Shown in pieces: positions 45,749 to 49,782 of a stretch of 64,000 nucleotides of DNA. Positions within the stretch are counted from its first letter, which is position 1. Each line of letters opens with the position of its first letter. The notes under the pieces are model-generated. The model made no database searches, was not told where the DNA came from, and saw nothing but the letters and a program-made list of their open reading frames with translations. Where the stretch lies: contig NZ_JAGGPS010000007.1 of NCBI RefSeq assembly GCF_018613725.1, positions 117,463 to 181,462 on the forward strand. The letters run 5' to 3'. The stretch comes from Hymenobacter sp. ISL-91. Lineage in GTDB: Bacteria; Bacteroidota; Bacteroidia; Cytophagales; Hymenobacteraceae. The translations under genes and the position numbers were made by a program.

Positions 45749-46372
45749 ATGGAATGGCTTGATTTTACAACTCCCATCACCGACGGCATGGCCTACTGGC
45801 CCGATAATGCGCCGGTGCGCATCCGGCGCACCCTGAGCATGGCCGATGGCGCGGCGGCCAACGTGTCGGAAATTAGCATGAGCGTGCATACGGGCACGCA
45901 CGTTGATGCGCCGCTGCACTTCCTGGCCGACGGCTCCGACGCAGCCAGCCTCGATTTAAGCCACCTGATGGGACCGGCGCTAGTGGTAGCCGTCGATTCG
46001 GAAAAGGTTATTGCCCTGGCCGACGTGGAGCACCTAACGCTGGAGAAAGGCGCACGGGTGCTGTTCAAAACCCGCAACTCAGCCCGCAACTGGTCAACAG
46101 AGCCCTTCGACCCCGACTTTGTGCGCCTGGGAGCCGAAGCCGCCACCTGGCTGCGCGAGAAAGGCGTAGTGTGCGTGGGCGTCGATTACCTCTCGGTCGG
46201 CAACGCCGATACCCATCATATTCTGTTGGGCTCGGGCATCAGCGTCATTGAGGGGCTGGCGTTGCAGCACGCGCAGCCCGGCGAGTACGAGCTGCTGTGC
46301 CTGCCGCTGAAAATAAAAGGCACCGATGGGGCGCCCGCCCGCGTACTGGCCCGTTGGGTCGAGGCAGGGTAG
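45749..46372 (+). CDS. Cyclase-family (kynurenine formamidase-like) metal hydrolase
   Basis: A 207-residue member of the cyclase/KynB family. The signature HTGTHVDAPLHF is at 47-58, with metal ligands His47, His51 and Asp53, and a later His-His in NADTHHILL. Known members hydrolyse N-formylkynurenine or cyclic amides and esters. No other tryptophan-catabolism gene is close, so I do not call kynB. A lactone substrate would fit the sugar-oxidation neighbours, but this is speculation. It is followed by an inverted repeat and gnd. Confidence 0.8.
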   Translation: MEWLDFTTPITDGMAYWPDNAPVRIRRTLSMADGAAANVSEISMSVHTGTHVDAPLHFLADGSDAASLDLSHLMGPALVVAVDSEKVIALADVEHLTLEKGARVLFKTRNSARNWSTEPFDPDFVRLGAEAATWLREKGVVCVGVDYLSVGNADTHHILLGSGISVIEGLALQHAQPGEYELLCLPLKIKGTDGAPARVLARWVEAG

Positions 46373-46377
46373 ACAAA

Positions 46378-46529
46378 CTGTCATTGCGAGGAGGTAAGAC
46401 GAAGCAATCCGCTCGTACAAAACACGAAGCCTCGGAAAGAAATAAACTCCAACCGCAGGGCTTTTCGCTTATCAGGGCTTTGGGCATTGTCCCCATGGAT
46501 TGCTTCGTCGTGCCTCCTCGCAATGACAG
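46378..46529. repeat. Inverted repeat of the GTCATTGCGAGGAGG family
   Basis: Arm 46378-46410 (CTGTCATTGCGAGGAGGTAA and onward to GAAGCAATCC) pairs with 46497-46529 with 3 mismatches, enclosing an 86-base spacer. It begins 5 bases after the cyclase stop codon and ends 28 bases before the gnd ATG. Confidence 0.88.
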
Positions 46530-46557
46530 CTCATTCACCAACTCACGCATTCACCGC

Positions 46558-47607: not shown

Positions 47608-48342
47608 GTGACTGACTCAACCGCTACGCCACTGCCCGCCCGCCCCGATCTGCTGCGCATCCCCTACGATGACTACCGCGTCCTGCCGGCCATTGCCAAC
47701 TCCGACCTTTCGCGCCTGCGCGACGCCCTCAATGGCCGCCCGCCGCGACCCCATAGCAGCGTGGGCGGAGCGCTGGGCCTGGGCACGGCCTTCCATACGG
47801 CTCTGCTCGAACCCGACCTCTACGAGGCCGGCCAGCCCGGCATCAACGATACGCTCATCTGGTGGATGGTGGAAGGCGTGCAGCTCGACCCCGAGGTAAA
47901 GGTGCTGCTTGAGGTAGGCACGCCCGAGCCTAGCTGCATCTTCACCGAGCCGGTTACGGGTACGCTCTGCAAGCTGCGCGCCGATCTGGTCATCGACCAC
48001 CCTGGCTACCCCTATACGGTTGTGGATTTCAAAACCACCATGGCCCGCGACTACAACCACTTCGTGGAGCAGTGCACCTACTACGACTACGACCGGCAGG
48101 CGGCCTTTTATGCGGATGCGCTGCAGGCTGAGCGGTTTTTGCTGATAGGCGTTCAGAAAACGGAACCCTTTAAAGTGTTTGTATATGCCGTGCCGCCGCT
48201 GATGCGTTCGGAAGGCCGGGCCAAGTACTTGCGGCTGTTGCACCTGCTACACCCCGAAGCGCCCGTGCCGCTGTCGGTGCTGCCCGCCGTGCGTACTGTG
48301 CGCCACGCGCTAAACGGCGAGCCGGATGACGAACCCGCGTAG
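47608..48342 (+). CDS. Stand-alone PD-(D/E)XK nuclease-like protein (RecE/DUF3799-like)
   Basis: A 244-residue protein with a GTG start (MTDSTATPLPARPD). The PD-(D/E)XK pattern is visible: an upstream helix segment LGLGTAFHTALLEPD, then KLRADLVIDHPG with the first Asp, VVDFKTT as the D-x-K strand, and RQAAFYADAL, the Q-x-x-x-Y helix found in RecE/Cas4/YqaJ-type nucleases. The region before it, YRVLPAIANSDLSRLRDAL, is also typical of the exonuclease VIII-like DUF3799 family, usually found in phages beside a RecT annealing protein. No recT or other phage gene is nearby. It may be a domesticated phage gene or a single-gene DNA-end processing enzyme. Confidence 0.75.
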   Translation: MTDSTATPLPARPDLLRIPYDDYRVLPAIANSDLSRLRDALNGRPPRPHSSVGGALGLGTAFHTALLEPDLYEAGQPGINDTLIWWMVEGVQLDPEVKVLLEVGTPEPSCIFTEPVTGTLCKLRADLVIDHPGYPYTVVDFKTTMARDYNHFVEQCTYYDYDRQAAFYADALQAERFLLIGVQKTEPFKVFVYAVPPLMRSEGRAKYLRLLHLLHPEAPVPLSVLPAVRTVRHALNGEPDDEPA

Positions 48343-48384: not shown

Positions 48385-48415
48385 TTGCAAATAATATAGC
48401 GTCTTGCTATACTTG
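48385..48415 (+). promoter_or_regulatory. Promoter of the asnA leader
   Basis: TATACTTG at 48408-48415 matches TAnnTTTG at seven of eight positions and has TTG at 48385-48387, 20 bases upstream. Transcription would start near 48422, just before the leader ORF. Confidence 0.6.
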
Positions 48416-48444
48416 TATAACCCCTGAATAAACGGGGTATTCCA

Positions 48445-48534
48445 ATGCGCCACTTTCGCAATATCCGCCAGAATAATAACTCGAATAATAATCTTATTCG
48501 GGACTGGAAGGCTATTGCTCCCTGGGAAAACTAA
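48445..48534 (+). CDS. Asparagine-rich leader peptide of asnA
   Basis: A 29-codon open frame, ATG at 48445 and TAA at 48532. Eight of the 29 residues are Asn, six of them in the block QNNNSNNN (codons 48472-48492). The peptide continues LIRDWKAIAPWEN. Promoter upstream, terminator hairpin downstream and an asparagine-synthetase gene as the next coding region form the standard layout of a transcription-attenuation leader: a ribosome delayed at the Asn codons by scarcity of charged tRNA-Asn would change folding of the RNA. Whether the frame is translated is not shown by the sequence; no clear Shine-Dalgarno is present, as is common in this phylum. Confidence 0.75.
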   Translation: MRHFRNIRQNNNSNNNLIRDWKAIAPWEN

Positions 48535-48567
48535 AAATCAGTAATTGATTTTTTTCTCAAGCCTTCC
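48506..48567 (+). promoter_or_regulatory. Antiterminator pairing segments of the asnA attenuator
   Basis: GGAAGGCT at 48506-48513, inside the leader ORF (codons TGG AAG GCT), is identical to the 3' arm of the terminator at 48573-48580. It can therefore pair with AGCCTTCC at 48560-48567 instead. It starts 14 bases after the last Asn codon of the block, so a ribosome paused there would leave it free. A second, all-AT hairpin (AAAAATCA 48533-48540 with TGATTTTT 48546-48553) overlaps the leader stop codon. Confidence 0.65.
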
Positions 48568-48587
48568 TCTCCGGAAGGCTTTTTTTT
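48559..48587 (+). terminator. Attenuator terminator upstream of asnA
   Basis: AAGCCTTCC (48559-48567) pairs perfectly with GGAAGGCTT (48573-48581) around a TCTCC loop, with eight T residues at 48580-48587. It lies between the leader peptide and asnA, 160 bases before the asnA start, so it can only act as a regulated or premature terminator for this gene. Confidence 0.88.
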
Positions 48588-48750
48588 GTGCCTTTGAAGC
48601 AGAAATAGCCCTGCAACGGCTGATTGCTGCGTCGGAGCTTAAATGAATTTGGTAGAATAAAAATCGAAAAAATGCTCCGGCCGGAGCAGGGAAACCTGTG
48701 TGCCTTTTTGAAAATAAAAACTCTCTCAAAACTCTTTAAAAGACAGCGCC

Positions 48751-49782
48751 ATGATGACCACCATTACCGCCGAAATGACCACCACCGACCTGCTCGAAAC
48801 CGAAGAGGCAATTAGCCTGGTAAAAAGCGTATTTGCCCGCGAGCTGGCCCGCCGCCTGCGCCTGAGCTGTGTTTCGGCCCCCATTGTCGTGCTCGATGGT
48901 ACCGGCATCAACGACGACCTGAACGGGATAGAGCGGCCGGTTGCTTTCCCGGTAAAGGCCCTGGCCGAGCGCCGGGCCGTAGTGGTGCATTCGCTGGCCA
49001 AGTGGAAGCGGCTGCGGCTGCGCGAGCTGGGCATAACGGCCGGCCGTGGCCTGCTCACCGACATGCGCGCCCTGCGCCCCGACGAGGATTACTCGCCCAT
49101 TCACTCCATCTATGTTGACCAGTGGGATTGGGAGCAGTGCATCACCGCCGAGCAGCGGACACCGGAGTTCCTGCGCGCTACTGTCGAGCAGATTTACGAG
49201 GCCCTGCGGGCTACCGAGGCCGAAGTGGCTGCCCGATACCCCGATATTCTGCCAGTGCTACCCGGCCGCATCACGTTTCTGCACGCCGAAGATTTGCTGC
49301 GCCAGTACCCCGAGCTTACCCCTAAAGAGCGCGAGCATGAGGCCGCCCGGCAGTACGGGGCTGTGTTTCTGATGGGCATTGGGGGCGCGCTCGGCAACGG
49401 GGAGGCCCACGACGGCCGCGCCCCCGATTACGACGACTGGAGCACCGAAACTGCCCCCGGCTACCGTGGCCTCAACGGCGACCTGCTGGTGTGGCACCCG
49501 GTGCTGCAAACGGCCCTGGAGCTGTCGTCGATGGGCATTCGGGTGGATAGCCTGGCGCTGATGCGGCAGCTGACCGTGCGCGGCTGCGAGCAGCGTCAGG
49601 AGCTGGATTTCCATGGCCGACTGCTGCGGGGCGAACTGCCCGAAAGCATTGGGGGCGGCATTGGCCAGAGCCGGGTGTGCATGTTCATGCTCCGCAAAGG
49701 CCACATTGGCGAGGTGCAGGTGAGCATCTGGCCCGAGGAAGTGCGCCGCGAAATGGCCGACGCAGGGGTTACGTTGCTGTAA
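48751..49782 (+). CDS. asnA: Asparagine synthetase A (aspartate-ammonia ligase)
   Basis: A 343-residue class II tRNA-synthetase-like enzyme that makes Asn from Asp, ammonia and ATP. Motifs: VSAPIVVLDGTGINDDLNGI, HSLAKWKRLRLRELGI, IYVDQWDWEQCI, GAVFLMGIGGALGNGEAHDG and GGGIGQSRVCMFMLRKGHIG. Full length. The start ATG at 48751 is followed by a second Met; an alternative at Met9 cannot be ruled out. The 400-base upstream region holds an Asn-rich leader peptide and an attenuator, so expression is probably controlled by the charging level of tRNA-Asn. A 16-base perfect palindrome (48673-48688, TGCTCCGG/CCGGAGCA) lies in the rest of the leader. A terminator follows. Confidence 0.95.
   Translation: MMTTITAEMTTTDLLETEEAISLVKSVFARELARRLRLSCVSAPIVVLDGTGINDDLNGIERPVAFPVKALAERRAVVVHSLAKWKRLRLRELGITAGRGLLTDMRALRPDEDYSPIHSIYVDQWDWEQCITAEQRTPEFLRATVEQIYEALRATEAEVAARYPDILPVLPGRITFLHAEDLLRQYPELTPKEREHEAARQYGAVFLMGIGGALGNGEAHDGRAPDYDDWSTETAPGYRGLNGDLLVWHPVLQTALELSSMGIRVDSLALMRQLTVRGCEQRQELDFHGRLLRGELPESIGGGIGQSRVCMFMLRKGHIGEVQVSIWPEEVRREMADAGVTLL

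Follow-up and report, generated by a model that had tools for sequence, protein, structure and literature searches.

The window analysed here, a stretch of 64,000 nucleotides from Hymenobacter sp. ISL-91, carries on its forward strand the gene asnA (48751-49782), which encodes aspartate--ammonia ligase, preceded by a compact leader region. The gene scores 399 bits against TIGR00669 (cut-off 293) and 324 bits against PF03590, for which it is the sole match in the genome, and an upstream ORF on the same strand ends at 48342. A promoter-like site, TTG-20-TATACTTG, has its TTG, which we take to be the -33 part, at 48385-48387 and the box TATACTTG at 48408-48415. This box is similar to TAnnTTTG, the promoter -7 consensus that was used for comparison (PMC9723704). 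Transcription from this putative promoter would start some 25 bases upstream of a leader ORF of 29 codons, MRHFRNIRQNNNSNNNLIRDWKAIAPWEN (48445-48534), with Asn at codons 6, 10-12, 14-16 and 29. Six of these eight residues form the control block NNNSNNN (48472-48492), and an intrinsic terminator (48559-48587) lies between the ORF and asnA. An earlier note, made from the letters alone, had described the promoter-like site and the Asn-rich ORF and had named the following gene as asnA; the sequence of the site, the coordinates and translation of the ORF and the family score of the gene all agree with it.

An ORF of this composition is exceptional. Among the 431 first-ATG ORFs of 10-60 amino acids in the window, the leader ORF is the only one with at least six Asn per eight residues, and none of 5,000 dinucleotide shuffles of the intergenic region (plus strand) yielded such an ORF, which excludes a chance product. 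Its Asn codons are AAT in six of eight cases; the count for asnA plus four further large ORFs in the window is AAT 13 and AAC 50.

Unguided folding of the full leader RNA gave -42.2 kcal/mol with a z-score of -4.53, a value that none of 200 shuffles reached. The predicted structure begins with a protector helix in which segment 1 (48458-48471), located before the Asn block, pairs with segment 2 (48504-48518), located after it. Enclosed by this helix are the Asn block and, at 48480-48502, an inner hairpin in which the Ser TCG codon lies together with Asn codons; the upper pairs of the inner hairpin are lost in some rows of the alignment. A middle hairpin follows (48523-48559) and then the terminator, formed by segments 3 and 4: 48559-48567 pairs with 48573-48581 to give a 9-bp stem with a 5-base loop, running into eight T at 48580-48587. 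Folded singly, the protector with the inner hairpin reached -18.5 kcal/mol and the terminator -14.2 kcal/mol (z -4.49). Of the nine bases that make up the first three Asn codons, the full fold leaves eight unpaired.

Segment 2 has a second possible partner. At 48506-48513, within the leader ORF, it carries GGAAGGCT, an exact 8-base copy of the terminator 3' arm, through which it can pair with the terminator 5' arm; the resulting antiterminator encloses the middle hairpin and folds singly at -20.1 kcal/mol. Since 13 of 5,000 shuffles of 48445-48558 contained GGAAGGCT, the likelihood of its occurrence by chance is small. The full-length fold pairs 48506-48513 with RNA that precedes the Asn codons, and the strand able to capture the terminator is thus sequestered. 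The earlier note had recognized the terminator, the arm copy and its potential to pair with the 5' arm, all of which stand, except that 13 bases and not 14 separate the copy from the Asn block. Its interpretation of the region as an attenuator is likewise supported, but it overlooked the protector helix and the inner hairpin, and the OFF state needs the protector.

The gap between the terminator and asnA contains a second hairpin (48668-48709, plus strand) that is conserved in the alignments and dispensable for the attenuator model. In much of Hymenobacter it is of the AAAACTCCC-GGGAG type, followed by GTGTGCC and T's; read on the minus strand it is terminator-like, and in the sister genus described below a different hairpin occupies its position.

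Sequence comparison within the genus tied the leader to asnA. The gene is found in 50 of 120 Hymenobacter genomes, and at every one of these loci an ATG-started Asn-rich ORF lies 262-333 bases ahead of the start of the asnA match. Across the family, asnA occurs in 67 of 204 genomes, namely the 50 Hymenobacter, eight members of a sister genus (g6) and nine members of two other genera. All eight sister-genus loci carry the leader, as MRQFANSLNNQNRNNNLFRDGRLLV and variants of it, and none of Hymenobacter kind was found at the nine asnA loci of the other two genera. A covariance model run over the 120 Hymenobacter genomes with stricter filters returned 55 genomes at 84-167 bits, corresponding to the 50 with asnA and five without it. 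Nine further rows at 30-34 bits were set aside because by eye they resemble plain terminators. The promoter box TATACTTG recurs at 34 of the 50 Hymenobacter loci and another match to the box appears at four, but 12 loci have no clear -7 box.

The Asn block holds six Asn in 34 of the Hymenobacter leaders, five in 14 and four in two, written as AAT 231 times and as AAC 51 times, and column entropies at codon positions 1-3 are 0.16, 0.20 and 0.29 in the block and 0.75, 1.00 and 1.05 in codons 2-9. For a joint alignment we combined 63 leaders, i.e. the 50 from Hymenobacter, the eight from the sister genus and the five without asnA. The frame is open from the ATG through the Asn block in all 63, and the length of the block varies by whole codons. 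Single-base gaps (L037, L038, L039, L043 and four sister-genus leaders) all fall past the block and three four-base gaps of the sister genus fall at its end; beyond such frame-shifting gaps the peptide is altered and the RNA kept. In one case (L014) the leader ORF extends through the terminator. The Ser codon in the block is TCG in all 50 Hymenobacter leaders and CGG (Arg) in all eight of the sister genus, where the opposite strand of the inner stem reads CCG, matching CGG. As the partner strand changed in step, RNA pairing explains the swap, and this codon is conserved for the sake of the inner stem.

We then counted pairing over the alignment using 25 pairs from protector and terminator and from the base of the inner hairpin, omitting five pairs of the ISL-91 fold that fail in 8-24 of the 50 Hymenobacter rows. 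With the structure taken from the ISL-91 fold, which favours it over slid versions, 94.6% of cells in the 63 leaders keep their pairing versus 32-53% when the structure is slid by 1-3 columns. Eight pairs changed on both sides (shuffled mean 4.9, with 3 of 500 shuffles as high), as did 39 individual cells (shuffled mean 12.7). With the five omitted pairs included and only the 50 Hymenobacter leaders counted, 90.7% of cells are kept versus 34-52% slid, seven pairs changed on both sides (4.8 shuffled; 38 of 500 as high) and so did 33 cells (11.8 shuffled; 0 of 500). One outer protector pair, for instance, is GC in 35 leaders, GU in 10, AU in nine, CG in eight and something else in one. The terminator keeps 99.3% of its pair cells over the 63 leaders, and RNAalifold, applied to the 50 Hymenobacter leaders with no structure supplied, recovered both protector and terminator as well as the base of the inner hairpin.

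For the antiterminator, 99.0% of cells in the 63 leaders keep their pairing, versus 34-68% when slid. A claim of covariation for this element alone was dropped, its strands being nearly invariant and its score matched by 31 of 500 shuffles; the strands hardly vary because segment 3 has two partners. The earlier note had looked to relatives for a conserved Asn-rich short ORF and for compensatory changes in the three pairing segments. The ORF is there at every Hymenobacter and sister-genus asnA locus, and the segments are kept, with compensatory changes in the protector, but covariation in the antiterminator is weak.

From the sequence and the folding calculations we consider it highly probable that asnA is under the control of a ribosome-mediated transcription attenuator in this region, with charged tRNA-Asn as the signal. 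Several elements that define such a device are found together: clustered control codons for the amino acid of the downstream gene, an intrinsic terminator between leader ORF and gene (in sequence and fold), an antiterminator whose computed pairing is exclusive with the terminator, and a protector exclusive with the antiterminator, a helix that, in the computed pairing and masking, opens when a ribosome occupies the control codons. Mechanistically, the nascent RNA would first form the protector hairpin from segments 1 and 2, leaving the terminator free to form, so that RNA polymerase would halt ahead of asnA. When Asn-tRNA is scarce, the ribosome would stall on the Asn block, cover segment 1 and release segment 2, which would then capture the 5' strand of the terminator; no terminator would form and asnA would be transcribed. 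A ribosome that moves past the block would restore termination, either through refolding of the protector behind it or through its own bulk between segments 2 and 3. Through this RNA switch, asnA would very probably be on only under asparagine shortage.

All 15 genomes examined for asnB and all six examined for asnS have the gene in question; a second synthetase is therefore available, and tRNA-Asn can be charged with free Asn. No Asn-run leader was seen upstream of asnB (16 loci) or asnS (six loci), where two of the 22 regions have an ORF with scattered Asn. Directly before asnS of G000 (L213) there is a long inverted repeat, TGTCATCCTGAGCTTGCGAAGGACC and its complement, of the interspersed-palindrome kind; repeat-like text similar to it occurs in the window near 46300-46550.

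To simulate the ribosome, we masked a footprint of presumed size during folding. A ribosome placed on the first Asn codon brought the pairing between segments 2 and 3 to a mean of 0.98, with all 50 Hymenobacter leaders above 0.5. With no ribosome and RNA reaching the end of the terminator 5' arm, the mean was 0.68 over the 50 leaders and the value in ISL-91 was 0.96. The full ISL-91 leader adopts the protector and the terminator, but when the RNA extends only as far as the terminator 5' arm, the equilibrium lies on the side of the antiterminator. We make no claim of a two-state equilibrium switch, which holds in only 14 of 50 Hymenobacter, five of eight sister-genus and two of five leaders without asnA. 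Because the antiterminator is preferred at equilibrium in the absence of a ribosome, termination would have to rest on the order of folding, the bulk of the ribosome or the later arm of the terminator. According to these calculations, equilibrium folding alone does not explain the OFF state in the clade of ISL-91. The OFF branch is likely to be kinetic: the protector, which is completed some 40 bases before segment 3 is made, can form first, or a passing ribosome would separate segments 2 and 3.

A ribosome terminating at the stop codon could also set the OFF state by masking segment 2, as in trp, with the protector as a mere helper. This version of ribosome-position attenuation suits the sister genus well, where seven of eight leaders have their stop 7 bases past segment 2 and a ribosome placed there reduces 2:3 pairing to 0.00; such masking also abolishes the pairing in 11 Hymenobacter leaders with stops 9-15 bases past segment 2. 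However, the position of the stop is loose, at 9-75 bases past segment 2 across the 50 Hymenobacter leaders, and in 24 of them, ISL-91 included, the distance is 18 bases. Among those 24, 2:3 pairing stays at 0.88 or above in 23 when the ribosome sits at the stop (0.19 in L012). For RNA that ends with the terminator 5' arm, a ribosome at the stop gives a mean of 0.53 over the 50 leaders and a value of 0.99 in ISL-91, which is high because its stop lies 18 bases beyond segment 2. In ISL-91 a ribosome resting at the stop thus fails to cover segment 2 in any simple way, and turning the switch off would have to depend on the protector, the order of folding or ribosome bulk. On this evidence we find stop-codon masking doubtful.

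A second alternative accepts the RNA switch and replaces the sensor. Asparagine genes of Firmicutes are under control of the T-box, which binds uncharged tRNA directly and, while likewise responding to tRNA charging, needs no translated ORF. If a protein, a small molecule or uncharged tRNA were sensed here in a comparable way, the Asn codons would be a by-product of A/T-rich pairing, in keeping with the RNA being conserved better than the peptide past the block and with part of the block being contained in the inner hairpin. Nevertheless, the frame stays open through the block in all 63 leaders while block length shifts by whole codons, the Asn codons alternate between AAT and AAC, and the first three are almost entirely unpaired in the fold. 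Leaders in Flavobacteriales, described below, have a different arrangement of Asn codons. Moreover, an Rfam search of the window and seven loci gave no family at its cut-off, with known leader families below theirs (the top score in the window being Phe_leader, 23.2 bits against a gathering score of 55) and no T-box among the matches listed. A sensor other than the ribosome is thus very improbable. As for an ordinary terminator of the upstream gene, whose ORF does end on the same strand at 48342, combined with a chance ORF, it is almost certainly wrong, given that no shuffle produced the Asn ORF and that in both genera every genome with asnA, 58 of 58, has arm copy, protector and Asn ORF together with it as one unit.

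The five Hymenobacter genomes with a leader and no asnA (G050, G100, G112, G116 and G118) have orphan loci (L120, L121, L122, L123 and L124) in which leader and terminator are followed by a hairpin-rich stretch and a match to post-asnA sequence. Each matches 17-23 asnA-bearing relatives on the leader side and again at most 160 bases after asnA, with no match within asnA, and a search of the five loci for AsnA found no trace at E up to 1. With the flanks matching and the interior of asnA absent, the gene has been lost and the leader has stayed behind. The orphan blocks hold six, six, five, four and four Asn.

Beyond the family, we surveyed named genomes through the best 80 of at least 591 asnA candidates, seeking ORFs with at least four Asn in nine residues. 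The leader was present in five of five Hymenobacteraceae and, among the 75 other loci of these best 80, in Myroides sp. N17-2 and Vaginella massiliensis, three more having scattered Asn only. In a sample of the order around G535, probably Flavobacteriales to judge by an 82% match to a Myroides protein, eight of 395 genomes had an asnA match, one of them as fragments only, and three of the seven proper loci (G988, G915 and G1108) carry an Asn leader with a terminator. The RNA model built from Hymenobacter scored these five Flavobacteriales asnA leaders, the two from named genomes and the three from the sample, at 65.4, 60.5, 47.3, 41.4 and 38.5 bits (E 1.5e-12 to 1.7e-6). Eight other loci in the same search reached at most 24.9 bits. 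As controls, 182 further asnA loci, some few of which share a genome, did not exceed 29.8 bits, 15 of these control rows scoring 22.6-29.8 bits with E 0.001-0.044. When folded, L279, L305 and L306 gave the protector and terminator unmasked and the antiterminator when the first Asn pair was masked; for L243 and L307 masking made no difference, the fold being antiterminator-like either way. The pairing strands of G988, GGGAAGATT and GGTCTTCC, have changed jointly relative to Hymenobacter.

Two of these genomes have two serial Asn leaders, each with its terminator, before asnA: G988 (L305:1207-1457) and G915 (L307:2294-2551, minus strand). In G988 the second ORF, MKQRQTNNNNKSPPGPDFKSLI, starts 16 bases past the first T-run and the T-run of the second terminator ends 19 bases ahead of asnA; no protector was seen in the fold of this second leader. 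In G915 the second ORF, MYQINQNNSNANNSLHR, starts 3 bases past the first T-run, forms a hairpin over its own Asn codons and precedes the second terminator. The two loci have 46 and 32 first-ATG ORFs of 10-60 amino acids, respectively, and apart from the first leaders only MKQRQTNNNNKSPPGPDFKSLI and MYQINQNNSNANNSLHR reach four or more Asn in nine. A second promoter would scarcely fit between the leaders, which should therefore act in series.

Other branches of the phylum gave a different picture. In Cytophagales outside Hymenobacteraceae, none of 13 asnA loci has a leader of Hymenobacter kind and only ORFs with scattered Asn were seen. A sample of Bacteroidota contains asnA in 21 of 395 genomes, and an ORF search at 18 additional asnA loci of this sample found no Hymenobacter-kind leader, with G861 and G812 borderline. 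In the order of G861, none of 72 asnA upstream regions (71 of at least 300 bases and one of 61) is of this kind.

Several of these regions contain features of their own. At G812 (L173), an Asn-rich ORF ending in VNANLNSNLNLNANNNAMTAGG precedes asnA without a T-run terminator and may reflect translational control or chance. A weak case in the order of G861 is Rhinopithecimicrobium faecis (the genome of L171), where an ORF with four spaced Asn codons, MSNIYNSLLNYPCNLAGS, stands with a strong terminator right before asnA (L228:1372-1485); it scores 23.0 bits against the RNA model and is possibly a related or an independent attenuator. Terminators occur in 20 other regions among the 72, and L324/L325, from the same order of G861, have the ORF MIDLHQNNIINKTLNCIK with no terminator listed.

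To place the leader on the history of the protein, we built a tree of 50 chosen AsnA proteins, 16 of them leader-bearing, in which several branches are long. All 16 leader-bearing rows fall inside one part of 27 rows (support 89/75), and the leader label needs three changes versus 13.8 when shuffled (0 of 500 as low). A single gain of the leader followed by losses would fit this distribution; separate gains, or transfer together with the gene, could also have produced it. We see about an even chance that all these leaders belong to one old Asn-attenuator family, which would have accompanied a single lineage of AsnA in Cytophagales and Flavobacteriales and disappeared from some branches. At least two lineages would have acquired a second, serial copy that makes the response sharper, and in five Hymenobacter species the leader would have been orphaned and may act alone.

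Ribosome-mediated attenuators govern the trp, his, phe, thr, ilv and leu operons of enteric bacteria. The leader described here has in common with them a short ORF with a run of control codons, mutually exclusive protector, antiterminator and terminator, and a downstream gene for the same amino acid, and it differs in its Asn control codon, the gene asnA, the Bacteroidota host and the loose position of the stop. The mechanism is already classical, and asparagine is an amino acid for which we found no published leader peptide in the literature searched, in which subscription papers are thinly covered. Within the same phylum, clues to leader peptides upstream of amino acid biosynthesis operons come from Flavobacterium psychrophilum, where pheA and hisG are among the new structured 5' elements; the main text of that paper names no Asn leader and does not contain the word asparagine (PMC9723704). 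The same text reports Shine-Dalgarno sequences to be absent in Bacteroidota (PMC9723704), and leader-peptide attenuation in the phylum is also suggested in PMC7366714.

Taken globally, the Asn attenuator is well supported, and its spread and its two derivatives are unusual. If our reading is right, asparagine would join the amino acids sensed by leader-peptide attenuation, and would do so from a phylum where the papers found give only clues to the mechanism. The loose stop and the strong protector raise the question of whether the switch is turned off by ribosome masking or by RNA refolding behind the ribosome. With two attenuators in series before asnA, the two Flavobacteriales would allow a test of whether tandem units cooperate, while orphan leaders would show what remains once the regulated gene is lost.
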